Part shown: piece by piece, positions 1 through 20,691 of the stretch
Position numbering within the stretch: the first letter of the stretch is position 1
Layout of the letters: every line of letters begins with the position of its first letter
IMG/VR virus record: IMGVR_UViG_3300044675_008209
Span: 1 to 21,884 of that record
Reading direction: 5' to 3' (one strand)
Length of the DNA stretch: 21,884 nt
Origin: a virus
Translations under genes and position numbers: made by a program
The notes under the pieces: generated by a model
What the model was told of the DNA's origin: nothing
Databases searched by the model: none
What the model saw: the letters and a program-made list of their open reading frames with translations, nothing else

Positions 1-2989
1 CAGCTCTTCTAGATAAGATATCAAGATTTTTTGCATAAAGATAAGATACTTTACCGCCAGAACCATTTACTGCTGAAATTATAGCTTCTAAATTTTTAGA
101 TATACCACCCCCTTTTGCGCGAGCGGCTCCAGAAAGAATATCAATTTCCGATGCATTAGCTACATCTCCGACACCAGAAAGAAATTTACCCATTTTTCCA
201 GCTAATGTCGATTTGCCCGATCCCGCTGGACCAATAATAAGATTCTTTTTAACTTGAGAAGCAAGAACTGCTTTTAAGGTAGCCCCTTTATCTGGAGCAA
301 TCCTATCGGAATCATAAATGTATTTTGCAAAGTTTGGAATAAAACCCCCACTTGCTCTTGGAAAATTCTTCATCACTTGATCAATGAATTTATCTTTTTG
401 ACCTATACTATTTTTAAAGTCAGCATATTTTACGTTTTGGCCTTCAACACCAAATATTTCCTCTAGCGCAGTTCTATTATTTCCTGCATCAAAGCTGACA
501 TCTAAAGTTCCTTGATTTTTATCTCTTGCTCCCTTTGTAATTAAATTAATTACAGATTCAAATAATGCACCACGAATTGAACCTAAAGCACCTGCCCCAC
601 CAGCTTCTAAATATTTTCCAATACTTTCAGCGGTTAATGTGGCTGGTTGTGTTTTAATATCTGGTTGAACAGATTTTAATATATTATTTGCTGCAGATGC
701 TAAGGCATTATTCATTGCAGAATCAATACCTGATAATTTTATAAATTTAGAATTAGATTTTAATCCACCCGATTTTAGTTCTGGATCTACTCCAGAATAA
801 CCACCTTCAAATGAATTATAAAGTTTATTACCAGACTTTCTTGACCCTTTGAATATAGTTCTTAATCCGCTTGGATTATATGTTGATACAGAAGGTATCA
901 ACATTATTGTTTTAGGATCTAAATTAGCATTATAAACACTTCCTAAAGAAACTAATTTTTGTTGAGCTTGCGCTTCTGAAAATTTATAACCATTAATATT
1001 AAAAGATTTCGTTCCATTTATTCTATATTTTTCAAGATCTTGAATTGATGCAACTCCAACTGACTGCATTGCTTCTGCTGGACCTGTTTTTGCCGCAAAA
1101 TTAGGAATAAATCCTCCCGCAGCGCCAATCTTTTGAGCGCCAGATGGAAGACCCATTGATCTAATCATGTCCCTATTAAAGATAGCTGATCCACCTCTTG
1201 CAAAATTAGGAACAATATACTCACCAGTATGAGCGACCATCGTTCCTTTTTTACCGCCACCAAATGCAAAATTTGGAATTATTACTGGTTTATCTCCAGA
1301 TCTTGCCCCACCAACACCACGATTAATATCACGTGTTTCTTGAGAAACTGCTGGCATATAACCACCTGCAGCATTTTTTCCCTTAGCGCCCTTGGTCGCA
1401 ACCGTTCCAGCGTAAACACTTGGCGCAATTGAAGCAGCTATTCCTTGCATTTTCTGCATTATTCCATACTGCTCATTTAATGCTGTTGTGAAAAATTTAG
1501 CTTGAGCTACTCTATTACCTTCTAATTTTAATATTTGCTCTTGTATATTTTTATTATTCAATAACGTGCTTGCAATTGATCCTTGCAAAGATTTGATATC
1601 TTTTGCAGCATTTCCAATATTAAAAAATGTTTTTAAGCTTTCTGTCCCAAATTTAATTAAATCACTCGTAAGTTTTAATATAATACCACCAAATATAGCC
1701 AAACCAGGACCAGATAAAACGCCACCAATTCCCTTTATGATGCCATTAGCCAAGTCAGATCCAAGACCCTCTCCTTCCAAAATGCTTTGAACTTCTGATA
1801 CAAAATTATTAAAAAATGATAAAATATTATTTAAATTTTGAGTAACACCAATTTCTCCTAAAGTATTTGCTAATTCCTTTAAGTTTAATGATGCAGTATT
1901 AATAGATGCGGCTAAAGTCAAATTTAATGCTGTATTTCTTTGATACGCTTCAGTACCAGCATTTAAAAAAGCTTCAGTTGCTCCACGCGCAACCGAAGCT
2001 TTACTACTATAATCATCGAGGGCGGCTAACAATGGGGCGATTTGAAAACCGCCGCCTATTTTTTCTGTAATATTTGCAGATTCAATATCTCCAAGAGAAT
2101 TTATTTTAGAAGCCAAACCTTCAATTAATTTAGTTGCTGGCAATAACTTACCCTCCAAATCAACAACTTCCACACCAATACTTTGTAATAGATCAATACT
2201 TTCTGGTCTTTGAATTCTTGTGAAAATTGTTTTGAAGGAGTTTCCTATAACGGCTCCACCACGTGCTGTTTTTTGCTGTACTGCAGTAATAATGCCTCCC
2301 AATTCATCAATACTTACTCCAGCTTGTTGTGCAACTGACGCAGAGCGTTTAAAGGCTTCTATTAAATCCCTTTCTGAGACAGCGTACTGAGCAGCAGCAT
2401 TAGATACTTTATTTAAAACCTGTGATGTGGTTAAACCTTCTTTAGAAAATGAATTAACAGCTGCGGTTAAACCTTCTACAGCTTGTGCCGCATCAAGACC
2501 AGAAAGTCTAGCCAACACCATTGAATCTTTAAGTCTGATAATTACCTCGTTAGCTGGTAAACCCTGGCGACTTAACTCTAGAGCGGCCTCCGACACTGCT
2601 TTAAAAGAATTACCAGTTTCTCTTGCTACATCAAAAATATCTTTTTTAAATTTATTTAGTTCTGTGCTTGAATTTTGTAAAACACTATTTATATCTGCTA
2701 GTGATTTTTCAACTTCAATTGTTGTAGTTATTAAAGACTTAAAACCCTGCACAACAGAATTGAGAACCCCTACAGAAGCACCGAATGCTAACACGCGAGC
2801 ATTAGCAGCCTCCATTGATTTAGTAAACTCATCAGCTTGTCCAGTAATTCTACCTAAAGGCTGCGATAAAGCATTTATGCTTTTTGCATTTGTGCCTAAA
2901 TTTATACTTAAATTACTTCCAGCTTTTTTAGCTGCTGCTTGAAGGCTTTGTTCAAAGCCTGTTTGTGTTACTGGTATTTGAATTGGCAT
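1..2989 (-). CDS. Tail tape measure protein (TP901 type), partial, with repeat-bounded C-terminal cargo domains
   Basis: Open frame of 996 codons from ATG at 2989 with no stop to the left edge; I translated it codon by codon. Residues about 40-330 look like the TP901 tape measure core: long alanine-rich helices, and a stretch near residues 240-260 (ARGGAVIGNSFKTIFTRIQR) typical of that family. Residues about 390-440 are glycine-rich and hydrophobic, as in tape measures. From about residue 540 the protein changes: short motifs IIPNFA (570-575), IVPNFA (592-597) and GGFIPNFA (625-632 and 881-888) separate longer segments. Between the last two lies a PD-(D/E)XK-like segment (E811, D830, D857-F-K859). 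After the last lies a Walker A motif GPAGSGKST (920-928). The family sets tail length and passes through the tail during DNA injection. The C terminus is outside the window. Tape measure role is sure; the cargo domains are inference. Confidence 0.9.
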   Translation of the reverse strand, partial: MPIQIPVTQTGFEQSLQAAAKKAGSNLSINLGTNAKSINALSQPLGRITGQADEFTKSMEAANARVLAFGASVGVLNSVVQGFKSLITTTIEVEKSLADINSVLQNSSTELNKFKKDIFDVARETGNSFKAVSEAALELSRQGLPANEVIIRLKDSMVLARLSGLDAAQAVEGLTAAVNSFSKEGLTTSQVLNKVSNAAAQYAVSERDLIEAFKRSASVAQQAGVSIDELGGIITAVQQKTARGGAVIGNSFKTIFTRIQRPESIDLLQSIGVEVVDLEGKLLPATKLIEGLASKINSLGDIESANITEKIGGGFQIAPLLAALDDYSSKASVARGATEAFLNAGTEAYQRNTALNLTLAASINTASLNLKELANTLGEIGVTQNLNNILSFFNNFVSEVQSILEGEGLGSDLANGIIKGIGGVLSGPGLAIFGGIILKLTSDLIKFGTESLKTFFNIGNAAKDIKSLQGSIASTLLNNKNIQEQILKLEGNRVAQAKFFTTALNEQYGIMQKMQGIAASIAPSVYAGTVATKGAKGKNAAGGYMPAVSQETRDINRGVGGARSGDKPVIIPNFAFGGGKKGTMVAHTGEYIVPNFARGGSAIFNRDMIRSMGLPSGAQKIGAAGGFIPNFAAKTGPAEAMQSVGVASIQDLEKYRINGTKSFNINGYKFSEAQAQQKLVSLGSVYNANLDPKTIMLIPSVSTYNPSGLRTIFKGSRKSGNKLYNSFEGGYSGVDPELKSGGLKSNSKFIKLSGIDSAMNNALASAANNILKSVQPDIKTQPATLTAESIGKYLEAGGAGALGSIRGALFESVINLITKGARDKNQGTLDVSFDAGNNRTALEEIFGVEGQNVKYADFKNSIGQKDKFIDQVMKNFPRASGGFIPNFAKYIYDSDRIAPDKGATLKAVLASQVKKNLIIGPAGSGKSTLAGKMGKFLSGVGDVANASEIDILSGAARAKGGGISKNLEAIISAVNGSGGKVSYLYAKNLDILSRRA
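326..1282 (-). repeat. Four [I/F][I/V]PNFA protein repeats within the tape measure gene
   Basis: Copies encode IIPNFA at 1265-1282, IVPNFA at 1199-1216, GGFIPNFA at 1094-1117 and GGFIPNFA at 326-349. A degenerate copy, GGYMPAVS, is encoded at 1343-1366. The first three are close together; the third and fourth are 248 residues apart and enclose a nuclease-like segment. The coding triplets differ between copies, so the repeat is conserved at protein level, not as a recent DNA duplication. They look like linkers or processing/anchoring signals between domains; this role is inferred. Confidence 0.8.
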
Positions 2990-15018: not shown

Positions 15019-16879
15019 AGTTTATAAACATTGGAGTAAATGTTGTTTGAATATTTTCGGCCTTTTGGTTCATTATGTCGAAATATATTTGCACCATCCA
15101 ATTACCTAATACTAATGCGGAGTATGAGTCTTTTCTAGCTTTATCTGCGCCTCTTTGTTTTTTTAAGTTATGAGGTAAATCAAAACTTTGCGTTCCTTGT
15201 GCAGTGGTTGTGACTTGGATTAAGGCACATTCTACTTTAATAAGATCCATCATATCTTTTTGGTGTTCAACAAAATCAATCATTTTGGCTGAAACGCCCT
15301 GCTCTTCCTCACCGTTTCTTAAAAACTTCAACTCTTTGATTGGGATATTTGATTTACGCTGTATATTGTAATCATCATCCATTGCAGCCCCAGCAAATAA
15401 GATTCTTTTATGATCAAAAGCCGATTGCAAAGATTCGTTGGCATATCTTATCCATTGTGAGCTTGGCTTTCTTAAATAAACAATTTTTTTACTTTGTAAA
15501 TTATATTGATTTCTTGCATCCCTAAGATTTTTGTCATATTCCTGTATGTTATCAAAATCTGCATCAAAAGCATCCAACTTTAAATTATTTTGTTTAAATA
15601 TATCGCTTTCATTACAAGAATTCATGAATTGAACGCCACCGTTATAGTCAGCTACAATAGATACTATATTAAAATATGTTAATAAATAATGTAAATAAAT
15701 AATATGACTTTTTAAATTTGTTCCAGACATTGCATAACTATGAACTATCGTGCCTCTTGGTTTATCTGGATCTAATTTGATTAAAATCATTGCAAAATCA
15801 TCAGAACTTTCGCTTTCTGACCAAGATGGGTCAATTGCTAGTATATATCTACTCTTAGGATCTCCTACAACCTCAACGCATTGACCTTCTCCATCAGGTA
15901 TGGTACAAGCCGCCATTTTGCTTACTTTAAAATAACCAGAACTATCATCAGTAAATACAGCTCCAAACTCTCTATCGAATTGAGATTGACTCATGGTCGC
16001 TTTTGACTGGTTGATTAAATTTTGATCATATAATTGTTCTGGAGCGCAGTCATAGCTAAAATGCATAATAACCCTATGAGCGCCATCCTGTTCATTTGGA
16101 TTTAATATTAATGATTCATATTGCGAATATAATTTATATAAATATTCAAATTTATAAGAAGCTGAAGACAAACCTATAATTTTATTATTTGGCCATTGTT
16201 TTCTCTCCTCTTCTGTCATTTTACCCTGCGCTATCATTTTTGTTTCAAGATCATGTATCTCTTGTCTTTCTGTTGGGTTTTCTACAACAGATAAGAATGG
16301 CATGATAACCTCATTTAGTACTTTTTCTGGCATCAAAAGCAACTCATCAATAATCATTCTTTGAAAACGAAATCCACGAAGTTTTTCTCCATCACCTAGT
16401 GGTAATGCTGTAATTCTACTCTGTCCTATTTCCATTACCCATTCATCATTATTTTTAGATACCCTTGTGATGGCTTGAGATAGAAAAACTGCTTTAGGGC
16501 TACGAGATATTTCTTCTATTTTTCTAAATATCATTTTAGCCTGTCTGAATGATTTACTGATAATTCCTATATGAACACCTTGGTGTAATATAGCATCCAA
16601 TACTGCAAAAATTGCAGTAGAGAAACTTTTACTCATACCACGACTCCATATACCCAAGAAATAATCAGTCTCCATCATGGCTTTGATAGACATATGTTGA
16701 AACGGAAAAAGCCTAACACCTGTAATTAATTCAGATGCAAATGATGGATTCTCCCTCAAAAATTTATAAAACAAAACCTTAGCTTCTGTTTCTTCCAGAA
16801 AGCCTTCTTTTTCCATTAATTCTTGATTAATATTAGGAAATTTCTTTCTCCTTTTTTGTACTCCTGTTGTCCAAGCCAT
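15017..16879 (-). CDS. terL: Terminase large subunit (packaging ATPase and nuclease)
   Basis: A 620-residue protein with the two-domain layout of TerL. ATPase: adenine-binding FPFQ (58-61), a divergent Walker A SRGMSKS (79-85), Walker B RMIIDE (174-179) and the coupling motif IIGLSSA (234-240). Nuclease (RNase H-like): D350 in YILAIDPSWSES, D411 in IVADYNGG, and a late Asp near 590 (DSYSALVLGNW). Length and motifs match gp17-like terminases. It drives DNA into the prohead and cuts the concatemer. The residue before the Walker A lysine is Ser (S83) instead of the usual Gly. The first 47 nt overlap the end of the ERCC4 nuclease gene. A later ATG (codon 22) is a possible alternative start, but codons 1-21 look coding. 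Confidence 0.95.
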   Translation of the reverse strand: MAWTTGVQKRRKKFPNINQELMEKEGFLEETEAKVLFYKFLRENPSFASELITGVRLFPFQHMSIKAMMETDYFLGIWSRGMSKSFSTAIFAVLDAILHQGVHIGIISKSFRQAKMIFRKIEEISRSPKAVFLSQAITRVSKNNDEWVMEIGQSRITALPLGDGEKLRGFRFQRMIIDELLLMPEKVLNEVIMPFLSVVENPTERQEIHDLETKMIAQGKMTEEERKQWPNNKIIGLSSASYKFEYLYKLYSQYESLILNPNEQDGAHRVIMHFSYDCAPEQLYDQNLINQSKATMSQSQFDREFGAVFTDDSSGYFKVSKMAACTIPDGEGQCVEVVGDPKSRYILAIDPSWSESESSDDFAMILIKLDPDKPRGTIVHSYAMSGTNLKSHIIYLHYLLTYFNIVSIVADYNGGVQFMNSCNESDIFKQNNLKLDAFDADFDNIQEYDKNLRDARNQYNLQSKKIVYLRKPSSQWIRYANESLQSAFDHKRILFAGAAMDDDYNIQRKSNIPIKELKFLRNGEEEQGVSAKMIDFVEHQKDMMDLIKVECALIQVTTTAQGTQSFDLPHNLKKQRGADKARKDSYSALVLGNWMVQIYFDIMNQKAENIQTTFTPMFIN

Positions 16880-17798
16880 ATTTTTCTATTCTTTTGAACC
16901 AAAAATATTGCATATCAGTTCTCCATAAAGATTTACCTAATACTAATAATTTTGGAATTAATTCTGCACTTAATCCTCTTGATCCGCTAAAAACAAATTG
17001 ACAACAATCATTATAGTCTCTTTGTATTTGCCTCATATTATGAAAAACATAATTCAAGTTGAATTTTTTATAACTATTTTTATTGTATTCATCCATTCTA
17101 TGAAGAGGCGCTTCTATAACAATAAACAAATAACAGCCAAGGCTTCTGCATCTATCTAACTCTTTGACAAATCTATTGTACCAAGAAGTGACTGTTCCAC
17201 AGAAATCATTAAAAGATTTACGATCAACATGAGTATAATTATATTTTTCTCCAGAAATAGCGTAATCGCCTATATCAAGTTTTAATATTTCAGAATTTTT
17301 AAACCATAAAGGTTTTTGTTCCCTTGTATCAATTAATATTTTTATATCTGAATAATCATTCCAAAACTCTTTTGGTAATTTACCATTCAACATTGGTTCG
17401 ATTAAACATTTTTTACATGCATCCGTATAATTCCCAAAGTATTTTTTATATGTATCAATATCAGGCAAACCAGTAGTCCAAAGCTCAAGACTACTTAGAC
17501 CAGAATTAAGATTTTTTGCCTTTATTCTTCTATCCATCAATTCGATAATATATTCTTTAACTTCAATGAATGAAGCTTTATCGCACCATTCCTGCAATTG
17601 GTATGGTTGCGAGAAATCCTTCTCAAAATAATCATCATAATTTTTAAATGGAAGAAGTTCTCCAGTTAATTTATTTTTTCTTTGGAAATGTTTAACATAA
17701 TAGTCTCCTAACAACATATCATGTTTTTTGATATGTGTATGTAGATTTTTTAAAGCAGGAAATTCCTGATCACATTCTTTGCATTTAAATGACATCAT
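16833..17798 (-). CDS. Zinc-finger / ERCC4-type nuclease
   Basis: A 321-residue protein with three parts. N terminus: C2H2 zinc finger C6-x2-C9-x12-H22-x3-H26. Middle: GLPDIDTYKKYFGNYTDACKK (about 110-130) fits the short DNA-binding repeat associated with homing nucleases. C-terminal half: ERCC4/XPF-type nuclease with DTRE (157-160), GDY (177-179) and DRK (192-194; family consensus ERK), then a helix with RFVKELDRC and the FIVIEAP strand. Such enzymes cut branched DNA. It overlaps the next gene (TerL) by 47 nt and the gene before by 14 nt, so it is co-translated with packaging genes. It may trim recombination branches before packaging, or be a homing-type nuclease beside terL. ATG 17798 is followed by a second ATG. 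The nuclease fold is well supported, the role inferred. Confidence 0.8.
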   Translation of the reverse strand: MMSFKCKECDQEFPALKNLHTHIKKHDMLLGDYYVKHFQRKNKLTGELLPFKNYDDYFEKDFSQPYQLQEWCDKASFIEVKEYIIELMDRRIKAKNLNSGLSSLELWTTGLPDIDTYKKYFGNYTDACKKCLIEPMLNGKLPKEFWNDYSDIKILIDTREQKPLWFKNSEILKLDIGDYAISGEKYNYTHVDRKSFNDFCGTVTSWYNRFVKELDRCRSLGCYLFIVIEAPLHRMDEYNKNSYKKFNLNYVFHNMRQIQRDYNDCCQFVFSGSRGLSAELIPKLLVLGKSLWRTDMQYFWFKRIEKYGLDNRSTKKEKEIS

Positions 17799-18831
17799 CT
17801 TGATATATTCCTAATACTCTAGCCTTCCATTCCGACATGCCTTCAAGTCTATTAGCCTCTTCTTTTACTAATTCTTTTTGCATTTCAGCTATACGAACCA
17901 TATTTTGGCGCTCTTCTTGTTCTTGGAATAATTGAACTATGGATAAAATAGAAGCATTTTCTTTTTGTCTGCTTTTCATTCTTTCCGCTCTATCTCCTTG
18001 AAGTTTTTTTGTCAAATTCTCTATACGATTTTCGCATTGATGATATTCACTACTTTTTGCTTTAATAATTTCTGATAAACGAACGCTCATTTCATTCTGA
18101 TCGTCTGCTATATCAAACATTTCATTTAATTTATTTAAGTGACAACTGATAACTTCCAGATTAATGATTTCCTTACAGACATTTAAATATAAATTTATTT
18201 CATCGGCTGTTAAATCAGGCTTATCCCATGTTAAGCGAATAAATTCTTGTTCGAACAGCTCTCTATCACCTTTTGAAAGATAATTATTAACAATTTTAAG
18301 AAAGCGCGAATTATTTAAATTAATACCTAATCTTTCGACACAAATTTTCATTGGTCTATTTAATTTTGTTTCATCTAAATCCATCCCAGTAGCATCATTA
18401 ATCTTTTTAACTATTCTTGGAGGTGATTTTGGCGCTATATAATCATTCAATGCCCCAGAATCTTGAGAAGGTAAGAAGTCTGGGTTTATTTCTTTTATTG
18501 TTTCTAAAACAGTTCTTTGTTCAGCGCTCAAGGGCTTCACTTCTCTATCTGGGAAAATTATTTCTGCTATTTTAAGTGATGATAGACCCGATTCAGCTTG
18601 TTGTATGATAAATTCTTTTTGCTCTTTAGAGAACTCAATGGTTTCTTTTTTTTCTCGACGCGCAGTTTTAAATTGCAACTGATTTTCAATCATAAACTGC
18701 CTAACTAAACGACCCTCTTTACTTCTTCCGTCGATTTTATCGTTTTCAAAAACACGACGAGTGATTTCATTTAAATCGGAAGTAGATTTAAATATGTCGA
18801 TAATTTTTTGTTTTTGTTCTTCGGTTAACAT
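17785..18831 (-). CDS. Helix-turn-helix and coiled-coil protein, candidate terminase small subunit
   Basis: A 348-residue helical protein. Two N-terminal segments have helix-turn-helix character: residues about 8-55 (KIIDIFKSTSDLNEITRRVF) and about 70-112 (KEFIIQQAESGLSSLKIAEI, then LSAEQRTVLETI). A middle helical domain (about 150-250) is followed by a long charged coiled coil (about 255-335). DNA-binding helices plus an oligomerising coil just upstream of the large terminase fit a small terminase, which recognises phage DNA and recruits TerL; it is longer than most small subunits, which argues for caution. The start overlaps the sigma gene stop as TAATG, and its end overlaps the ERCC4 gene by 14 nt. 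No Shine-Dalgarno. Confidence 0.5.
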   Translation of the reverse strand: MLTEEQKQKIIDIFKSTSDLNEITRRVFENDKIDGRSKEGRLVRQFMIENQLQFKTARREKKETIEFSKEQKEFIIQQAESGLSSLKIAEIIFPDREVKPLSAEQRTVLETIKEINPDFLPSQDSGALNDYIAPKSPPRIVKKINDATGMDLDETKLNRPMKICVERLGINLNNSRFLKIVNNYLSKGDRELFEQEFIRLTWDKPDLTADEINLYLNVCKEIINLEVISCHLNKLNEMFDIADDQNEMSVRLSEIIKAKSSEYHQCENRIENLTKKLQGDRAERMKSRQKENASILSIVQLFQEQEERQNMVRIAEMQKELVKEEANRLEGMSEWKARVLGIYQDDVI

Positions 18832-19538
18832 TATTTTTCTATGATAATATCGTGATTATTAATTATCTCTTCAGCTTTTTTTTGAAAGATCTTTTTAAGA
18901 TTTTTTACTTGTCTGTATCCAGCTTTTCTTTTTTTCTCATTTGTTTTATACCCCATGAATTTGGCAACTTCTTCTTCTGTTTTTTCTTCAAAGAACAACA
19001 TTATATATGCTTTGTAGTGATTTTCGCTTAATTCAATTTTCATATGGTGATTCAATTTGTCAATAGATGACTCATAACAAAAATGATCATCTTGTCGTGA
19101 AGATATTTCACTCATATGACTTTCTGTGGAAACAGTAGTCTTTAACTCTAATCCAGCTTTTTTTTGGCTTTCCCATTTTTCATATAATTTACATTGAGAA
19201 TCCTGTATACCGCTTGATGTTGCCGAGCATTGGTTATCGCCAAGGCTAAATTGACATCCATTACATGGTTTTACATAGTTGCCATAGTGGTTTCTTATTA
19301 GATTTCTAATTTGATTAGAGATGATTCTACCTATCCATGGCTCTAATGGACGCTCTTGATCCCACATGTGCCATTTTTTATGAATATGAATTTTTATTAT
19401 CTGTTCTACATCATCAAAATCAAACCAGTTAATAGCATTCAACTGCCATTTTGCTCTTTGTCTTTTAATCGAAGAATCTATGATTTCAGAAAAATCCTCA
19501 AATTTATATTTAGGCTTTCTTTTCATCAATAAATTCAT
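18831..19538 (-). CDS. Phage-encoded RNA polymerase sigma factor (late type) with zinc-binding insert
   Basis: A 235-residue protein. Residues about 26-90 match sigma region 2: KRQRAKWQLNAINWFDFDDV, then WIGRIISNQIRNLIRNHYGNY, the helix that melts and reads the -10 box. C92, C95, C104 and C116 form a likely zinc site directly after it. Residues about 170-220 (ENHYKAYIMLFFEEKTEEEV, then a lysine-rich recognition-like helix) resemble region 4, although T4 gp55 has only a degenerate form. It likely directs host RNA polymerase to phage late promoters such as the TATAAATA-like boxes here. It overlaps the zinc-ribbon gene upstream by 29 nt and the next gene by TAATG. A second ATG at 19526 (codon 5) is an alternative start. 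Confidence 0.82.
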   Translation of the reverse strand: MNLLMKRKPKYKFEDFSEIIDSSIKRQRAKWQLNAINWFDFDDVEQIIKIHIHKKWHMWDQERPLEPWIGRIISNQIRNLIRNHYGNYVKPCNGCQFSLGDNQCSATSSGIQDSQCKLYEKWESQKKAGLELKTTVSTESHMSEISSRQDDHFCYESSIDKLNHHMKIELSENHYKAYIMLFFEEKTEEEVAKFMGYKTNEKKRKAGYRQVKNLKKIFQKKAEEIINNHDIIIEK

Positions 19539-19965: not shown

Positions 19966-20691
19966 TTACACTTTTTCTTGCGTATTTAGGCGAGCTACAA
20001 TGAATTTTAATATTTCACTTCTAACAATATCGCTTTCATTAAATTTAAATGAACGGATGCCATTACTAGTCGATTCGTCGTCATTAAATAGTTCAAACAT
20101 TTGACGGAATCCACTCTTAATAATATCACTTTGCATGAAATCGCCGCATATAATGATTTTTGTATTTTCTCCTATACGAGTAATCAATGTTGTGAGTTCT
20201 TTTAATGTGAAATTCTGCGCTTCATCCGCAACAATTAATTTATTTTGCCAACTTGCCCCGCGCAAAAAGTTAATTGGAGCTGCTCCAATTCTTCCATTTG
20301 CTTTCAAGAAAGCCGCATCACCTTCGTGTATTATCTCTTCAAGTTTATCATAAAGCGGCATTAAAAATGGATCAAATTTTTCAGCTATATCGCCAGGAAG
20401 CGCTCCCAATCCTTTATCGGCGCTTTCCGCAATACTTCTTATGTATAACAAATCTTTTTCGGGGTCTGCTTGCATTAACTGCAAACAGCCATAAAGAGAC
20501 ATATATGTCTTACTAGATCCCGCTGGTCCAGAGCAAAATATTATTTTAGTTTCTTCGTCGAGTAGAATATCTAAAAATGTTTTTTGTTTGGGGGTGAATT
20601 TGAATTTTCTTGATTTGAATTTTATTGTTCGTTCAAAGGCTGGTTGAATTTCCAATGAACCCGTCTCCCTCTCATTTTTCTTACGAGCCAT
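19966..20691 (-). CDS. phoH: PhoH-like P-loop ATPase
   Basis: A 241-residue protein with a single PhoH domain: Walker A GPAGSSKT (55-62), LLYIRSIAESADKGLGALPG (81-100), the family's hallmark, Walker B LIVADEAQNFT (152-162) and the ICGDFMQSD sensor motif (181-189). Length fits compact phage PhoH proteins. These ATPases are common in marine and other lytic phages and are linked to RNA or nucleotide metabolism, but the phage role is not settled. The Walker A has Ser in place of the Gly before Lys. A basic N terminus (MARKKNERE) precedes the domain. ATG 20691 is preceded by GTGTAAATA, 8 nt away, and no Shine-Dalgarno. The gene is transcribed alone, between its own element and a structured region. 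Confidence 0.95.
   Translation of the reverse strand: MARKKNERETGSLEIQPAFERTIKFKSRKFKFTPKQKTFLDILLDEETKIIFCSGPAGSSKTYMSLYGCLQLMQADPEKDLLYIRSIAESADKGLGALPGDIAEKFDPFLMPLYDKLEEIIHEGDAAFLKANGRIGAAPINFLRGASWQNKLIVADEAQNFTLKELTTLITRIGENTKIIICGDFMQSDIIKSGFRQMFELFNDDESTSNGIRSFKFNESDIVRSEILKFIVARLNTQEKV

Follow-up and report, generated by a model that had tools for sequence, protein, structure and literature searches.

A candidate kinase-like P-loop cassette among exchangeable modules in the tape measure protein of uncultured tailed phages

The tape measure protein encoded on a virus fragment of 21,884 bases, analysed here in full (the entire record IMGVR_UViG_3300044675_008209, hereafter the window), contains a P-loop domain that is one exchangeable cassette among many in a modular protein; the cassette that immediately precedes it is nuclease-like. 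The original prediction, made from the letters of this stretch, had drawn attention to the P-loop and missed this arrangement. We lean slightly towards the view that the domain is an injected kinase-like effector cassette, that is, a small and complete P-loop domain exchanged between tape measures. The phages that carry it are an uncultured family of tailed phages.

A conserved P-loop domain in the tape measure protein

The open reading frame (ORF) of the tape measure protein lies on the minus strand at 2..2989, as do all tape measure features given below. The left window edge cuts off its 3′ end, and the part inside the window encodes the N-terminal 996 residues. It matches PhageMin_Tail (PF10145) over residues 120-313 (2051..2632; E 1.2e-29, 104 bits against a cut-off of 33.2), and many PHROG tape-measure profiles match the same frame, the best at 1.1e-48. 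As is usual for such proteins, it is a long ORF located in the structural block, with a hydrophobic segment (residues 420-438, 1676..1732) that is placed at the same position in the relatives examined.

The Walker A motif GPAGSGKST was found at residues 920-928 (206..232, read as reverse complement), after the last GGFIPNFA motif of this frame, where it had been reported. A loose GxxxxGK[ST] pattern arises in 12% of shuffles of the tape measure protein and is therefore weak evidence when taken alone, so that conservation is needed; none of 20,000 shuffles contained the strict form GP[AS]GSGK[ST]T. Two overlapping scans of viral contigs yielded 9 and 29 loci with the P-loop domain inside long tape measures, and a query with the divergent member L065 retrieved still remoter ones (L119, L120 and L121), L090 being another remote relative. 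The P-loop is kept in every relative found with the domain, and in an alignment of 27 domains, which reaches down to 32% identity, the Walker A core does not vary. Invariant positions in this alignment are Y12, D13, D15, L25, the Walker A residues P41, G43, G45 and K46, then G54, L72 and S73, and further, besides the motif residues, K79, G82, S84, G99, R115 and R118. Pairwise ratios of nonsynonymous to synonymous substitution (dN/dS) for the cassette are about 0.1-0.3 (dN 0.02-0.36, dS 0.07-1.8), which indicates purifying selection.

The window holds the first 108 residues of the cassette (residues 889-996, 2..325). Relatives supply the remainder: some 55 further residues lie between the window edge and the next PNFA motif, where the domain ends, and the complete module counts about 160-165 residues flanked by two G[FY][IV]PNF motifs. 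Its elements follow in the order YIYDSDR, a helix, NLIIGPAGSGKST, EIDILSGAARTKDGGIS, KVSYLYTKN, RRxGR, GDLRS and GT.YAPLNQFDF. In the window, the invariant YDxD (YDSD, residues 892-895, 305..316) lies upstream of Walker A, and the strand EIDILS is followed by the invariant S953, K959, G962 and S964 (EIDILSGAARAKGGGIS, residues 948-964, 98..148). The arginine pair R994-R995 (5..10) is the start of the presumed LID, whose partner invariant arginine (R118 in alignment numbering) falls beyond the window edge.

Predicted fold and active site

A structure predicted by AF2 with 27 sequences reached a pLDDT of 82.7 and a pTM of 0.81, all five models having a pLDDT of 79-83. Around Walker A it shows strand E34-40, a loop and helix H46-51; the segments KKNLIIG, EIDIL and (K)VSYLY, proposed as strands from the sequence, are all strands in the model. 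In VIA-align comparisons the top row was the polynucleotide kinase 4gp7 (Z 8.2, 116 residues aligned, 3.6 Å, 16% identity), followed by adenylate kinases (Z 7.6), zeta toxins (Z 7.0-7.2, 134-136 residues aligned) and a guanylate kinase (Z 6.9). The best rows are nearly all P-loop kinases, and a single GTPase (EngB, Z 6.0) is among the top 50. Rows lying within one Z unit are tied, which means that the comparison supports the fold class without supporting any one family. A first AF2 model, built with 21 close sequences (pLDDT 69.5), had ranked GTPases first; this ranking was discarded because the GTPase rows gave way to kinases once divergent relatives had deepened the alignment.

With a predicted P-loop fold and a motif that is conserved in related tape measures, neither of the two outcomes that the original prediction named as refuting it was observed, and the proposal that this tape measure carries a nucleotide-binding enzyme domain is supported. 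Of the more specific wording, 'kinase or AAA folds', the first half is the better supported. The predicted structure supports a domain that is kinase-like, not AAA-like, and of no catalogued family. AAA profiles matched below threshold and mainly at the P-loop (AAA_33, PF13671, gave E 0.068-0.19 and 12-14 bits against a cut-off of 27, over the P-loop only). Sub-significant matches to NadR/ribosylnicotinamide kinase and Dda helicase likewise cover the P-loop only, and PADLOC gave weak matches limited to it.

The Walker B motif that the original prediction proposed to look for could not be placed on EIDIL. The strand is real, but divergent relatives have VLLLS, TLLS, YLVLS or TILS at this position, with an invariant LS ending the strand; its aspartate is thus unconserved, and EIDIL is no Walker B. 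R115 and R118, located after the fourth strand and invariant in the 27 domains, resemble the paired arginines of a kinase LID. Classical kinases of the polynucleotide kinase, adenylate kinase and zeta group have their substrate or base (catalytic) aspartate after the P-loop. Here there is no conserved acid after the P-loop, yet an invariant YDxD precedes it, and one reading of this pattern is that the acid strand has moved ahead. Judging from the residue order, the domain is possibly a circularly permuted kinase with its substrate-acid strand ahead of the P-loop.

Several observations speak against a kinase-like effector and must be set beside the model. Foldseek searches with the improved model gave E-values above 0.001 and TM-scores of at most 0.43, and the best VIA-align Z, 8.2, is close to the level at which the program warns of a merely common arrangement. 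Searches of Pfam, NCBIfam, PHROGs, PADLOC and PDB sequences returned no kinase family, and essentially the P-loop only. Among the 27 domains, there is no conserved acid of the Walker B type (hhhh[DE]), nor any invariant acid between K46 and R118. Finally, neither the cassette region nor the divergent P-loop cassette nor the RDEP cassette described below had a relative in a collection of isolate phages.

The domain is one of many exchangeable cassettes

We scanned for a conserved tape-measure linker, without selection for the P-loop; 176 relatives were found, of which 80 were kept, and the census comprised 78 distinct tape measures. The region bounded by PNFA motifs holds variable, reordered cassettes of about 20 families (25 cassette clusters were formed, some of which correspond to the C-terminal body and not to cassettes). 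The P-loop cassette is present in 19 of the 80 loci; it precedes the nuclease cassette in some tape measures and comes after it in others, and cassette-bearing tape measures are single in-frame ORFs throughout.

Exchange is apparent from uneven identity. Between the window and L012, the P-loop segment is 97% identical, as against 58% for the N-terminus and 27% for the preceding cassette; for L002 and L004, the corresponding contrast is 92% against 45%. At the DNA level, it is within the PNFA codons that identity to relatives over 30 bases climbs, from values of about 0.3-0.5 to values of 0.97-1.0, and this break identifies GGFIPNFA as a junction of cassette exchange. The window has four such motifs: VIIPNFA (IPNF from residue 571, 1268..1279), GEYIVPNFA (VPNF from residue 593, 1202..1213), GGFIPNFA at residues 625-632 (1094..1117) and the last GGFIPNFA at residues 881-888 (326..349), which is the cassette junction with the jump in DNA identity. 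No mention of the PNFA motif was found in the open literature. The motif is perhaps also a processing or docking site.

Full-length related tape measures range from about 1,700 to 3,700 residues. This length was seen to vary in good part with the number of cassettes. Such a spread is at odds with a simple role as length ruler; looping out or folding of the cassettes would reconcile the two.

The cassette between the third and fourth motifs (350..1093) has a PD-(D/E)XK nuclease-like signature, and the signature only: GALFE (residues 807-811), D830 and D857-F-K859. It recurs in 76 relatives (GxxFE in 95-96%, D in 97%, K of [DE]xK in 97%). This cassette, which directly precedes the P-loop cassette in the window, is nearly universal in related tape measures but very divergent in sequence. 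Pfam searches with ten other cassette types, this one included, gave no significant match, and the HAD-, APH- and nuclease-like labels therefore rest on motifs. A HAD phosphatase-like cassette (YDWDGTIIP ... VDDEE) was recognised at this level in L033, L034, L035, L037, L038 and L039, six closely related loci; it occurs only in tape measures that have the P-loop cassette too. This co-occurrence recalls kinase-phosphatase pairs. Similarly, an APH/ABC1-kinase-like cassette, with a glycine loop, VKKF, GDxHGSN or similar (GDLHGSN) and DPG, is found between PNFA motifs in L005, L048, L056, L058, L061 and L067, and a further label given on motif grounds is possibly acetyltransferase-like.

A short cassette, LKNxxNPxGLxVxNxRDEP ('RDEP'), is near-universal and lies at about residue 1060-1140 in L002. 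By eye, the C-terminal half of L002 also contains two enzyme-like stretches, one resembling lysozyme (KREGFEARAYSD...GYGTK) and one resembling a carboxypeptidase (STRHNKEVGSADIKL).

Distribution and neighbouring genes

No P-loop domain of this kind was found in the bacterial and archaeal genomes searched. The N-terminal part of the tape measure and the terminase have remote similarity to known phages, best to those of Bacillus, Lactococcus and related ones (22-29%), and no match was found for the capsid candidate.

Three other minus-strand ORFs of the window were noted by eye: one at 16833..17798 with an ERCC4-type nuclease-like motif (ILIDTREQKPLWF), adjoining the terminase gene; a sigma-factor-like one at 18831..19538, within the structural gene block; and one at 19966..20691, in the same strand block, for a PhoH-like P-loop protein (FCSGPAGSSKT).

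Discussion

Tape measures are ejected from the virion with the DNA. If the protein described here behaves in the same way, it would leave the virion together with the DNA and its P-loop domain would fold or refold on the host side, where ATP would be bound through Walker A. A phosphate could then be passed to a host nucleotide, a nucleic-acid end or a small molecule, with YDxD as the substrate or base acid and the paired LID arginines assisting; such a kinase step may serve early takeover or counter-defence, alongside the nuclease module. Both the injection of the P-loop cassette and its enzyme activity (ATP binding, phosphotransfer) are what we infer, and the idea of an injected effector fits the cassette architecture. 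A substrate of the polynucleotide- or nucleotide-kinase type is a first guess, prompted by the kinases that head the structural comparison and by the nuclease-like cassette that accompanies the domain. Taken as a whole, the set of cassettes suggests a second role for the tail protein, that of a multi-enzyme payload entering with the DNA. The wider proposition, of a modular multi-effector chassis in which a peptide and DNA motif serves as recombination joint and the P-loop cassette is a new kinase family, possibly circularly permuted, is one that we put forward tentatively and with some doubt.

The original prediction had named a zeta-toxin-like kinase as an example of such an effector. Its kinase-like part agrees with the model; the zeta part does not fare as well. 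A true zeta toxin would be an injected UDP-sugar kinase halting cell-wall synthesis, and zeta-1 structures do provide the longest alignment. Zeta-like kinases have moreover been described in polyvalent proteins and MuF fusions (Iyer et al., PMC5512222), and a BFVD search with the weaker first model hit a 'Zeta toxin domain containing protein' of an uncultured phage (E 0.044). Nevertheless the zeta Z of 7.2 is tied with the 8.2 of polynucleotide kinase and the 7.6 of adenylate kinases, the acid motif stands before the P-loop and not after it, and the Pfam zeta-toxin family PF06414 has no match in the window domain or the full domains (E up to 1), in the full-length relatives or in the record. 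We consider a true zeta toxin quite unlikely. A non-catalytic or regulatory nucleotide-binding module, such as a sensor of host ATP that triggers refolding or release, or a stable filler domain, is unlikely as well, though it would be in keeping with a missing Walker B acid and the lack of a family assignment; the invariant LID-type arginine pair, the K..G.S residues and YDxD have the appearance of an active site, and the cassette is optional and exchanged as an effector would be.

It is highly improbable that the domain is an ATPase motor or an AAA/helicase-type module pulling DNA into the cell. The Pfam AAA matches that could suggest it are weak (E 0.0007-0.1), all of them below cut-offs and mainly confined to the P-loop, and the improved model matches kinases; about 160 residues leave no space for AAA lid and sensor elements, and most related tape measures lack the P-loop domain. 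This candidate was rejected on the P-loop-bound profile matches and the kinase-like better model; nor does the domain have the Walker B of an AAA ATPase. Another view takes the cassettes for DNA of a mainly selfish or mosaic kind, swapped at a repeated motif by recombination or nuclease-driven homing, with little benefit for the phage. The abrupt change in DNA identity at the motif and the near-universal PD-(D/E)XK-like cassette could be taken in this sense, as could a paper on nucleases at the boundaries of phage genetic exchange (PMC10448857). We find it very unlikely all the same, given the purifying selection on the P-loop cassette, the long-term invariance of residues resembling an active site and the single in-frame ORFs seen throughout.

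Among known systems, the nearest concept to a kinase-like effector cassette in a tape measure is that of polyvalent proteins, and the nearest experimental precedent is Tme. Polyvalent proteins of phages and conjugative elements unite disparate enzyme-like domains in one long polypeptide proposed to be injected with DNA (Iyer et al. 2017, PMC5512222); the word 'tape' was not found in that article. The likeness lies in several enzyme-like domains, kinase and nuclease activities among them, in reshuffled architectures, the domains being assigned here at motif level. The difference is that here the chassis is a tail tape measure and that a fixed GGFIPNFA, which is also the recombination junction, delimits the cassettes. 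Tme, from the contractile injection systems of Streptomyces, is an endonuclease effector related to tape measures, with demonstrated nuclease activity (PMC11126660). It offers a precedent for an enzymatic effector domain on a tape-measure-like protein, but its setting is a contractile injection system and its enzymatic part a single EndA-type nuclease at the C terminus, whereas the phage protein has many internal exchangeable cassettes, a kinase-like one included.

At the level of single domains, the best fold match is the kinase domain of Clostridium thermocellum Pnkp (4gp7), which shares the P-loop and has a LID arginine pair; unlike Pnkp, the cassette has no sequence-family match, has YDxD before the P-loop and is part of a virion protein. 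The Neisseria zeta-1 toxins (6eph, 6epg, 6epi) share the P-loop kinase fold, and differ from the cassette in their family and in the conserved acid after the P-loop that is missing here. Some tape measures carry peptidoglycan-hydrolase domains, and these are alike in placing an enzymatic domain within a tape measure; their action is on the cell wall, whereas cassettes resembling kinases, nucleases and phosphatases imply targets in the cytoplasm.

Tape measures are usually viewed as rulers and pore formers, with wall hydrolases at most. If our reading is true, a ruler whose exchangeable modules resemble kinases, nucleases and phosphatases would be a delivery vehicle for enzymes of early takeover or counter-defence, and GGFIPNFA would be a naturally occurring peptide joint for cargo built from modules. 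It also leaves the puzzle of why relatives should differ by up to two thousand residues if the tape determines the length of the tail. Should the tape measure indeed be a modular chassis, these phages would exchange the activities they inject much as bacteria do with polymorphic toxin tips.
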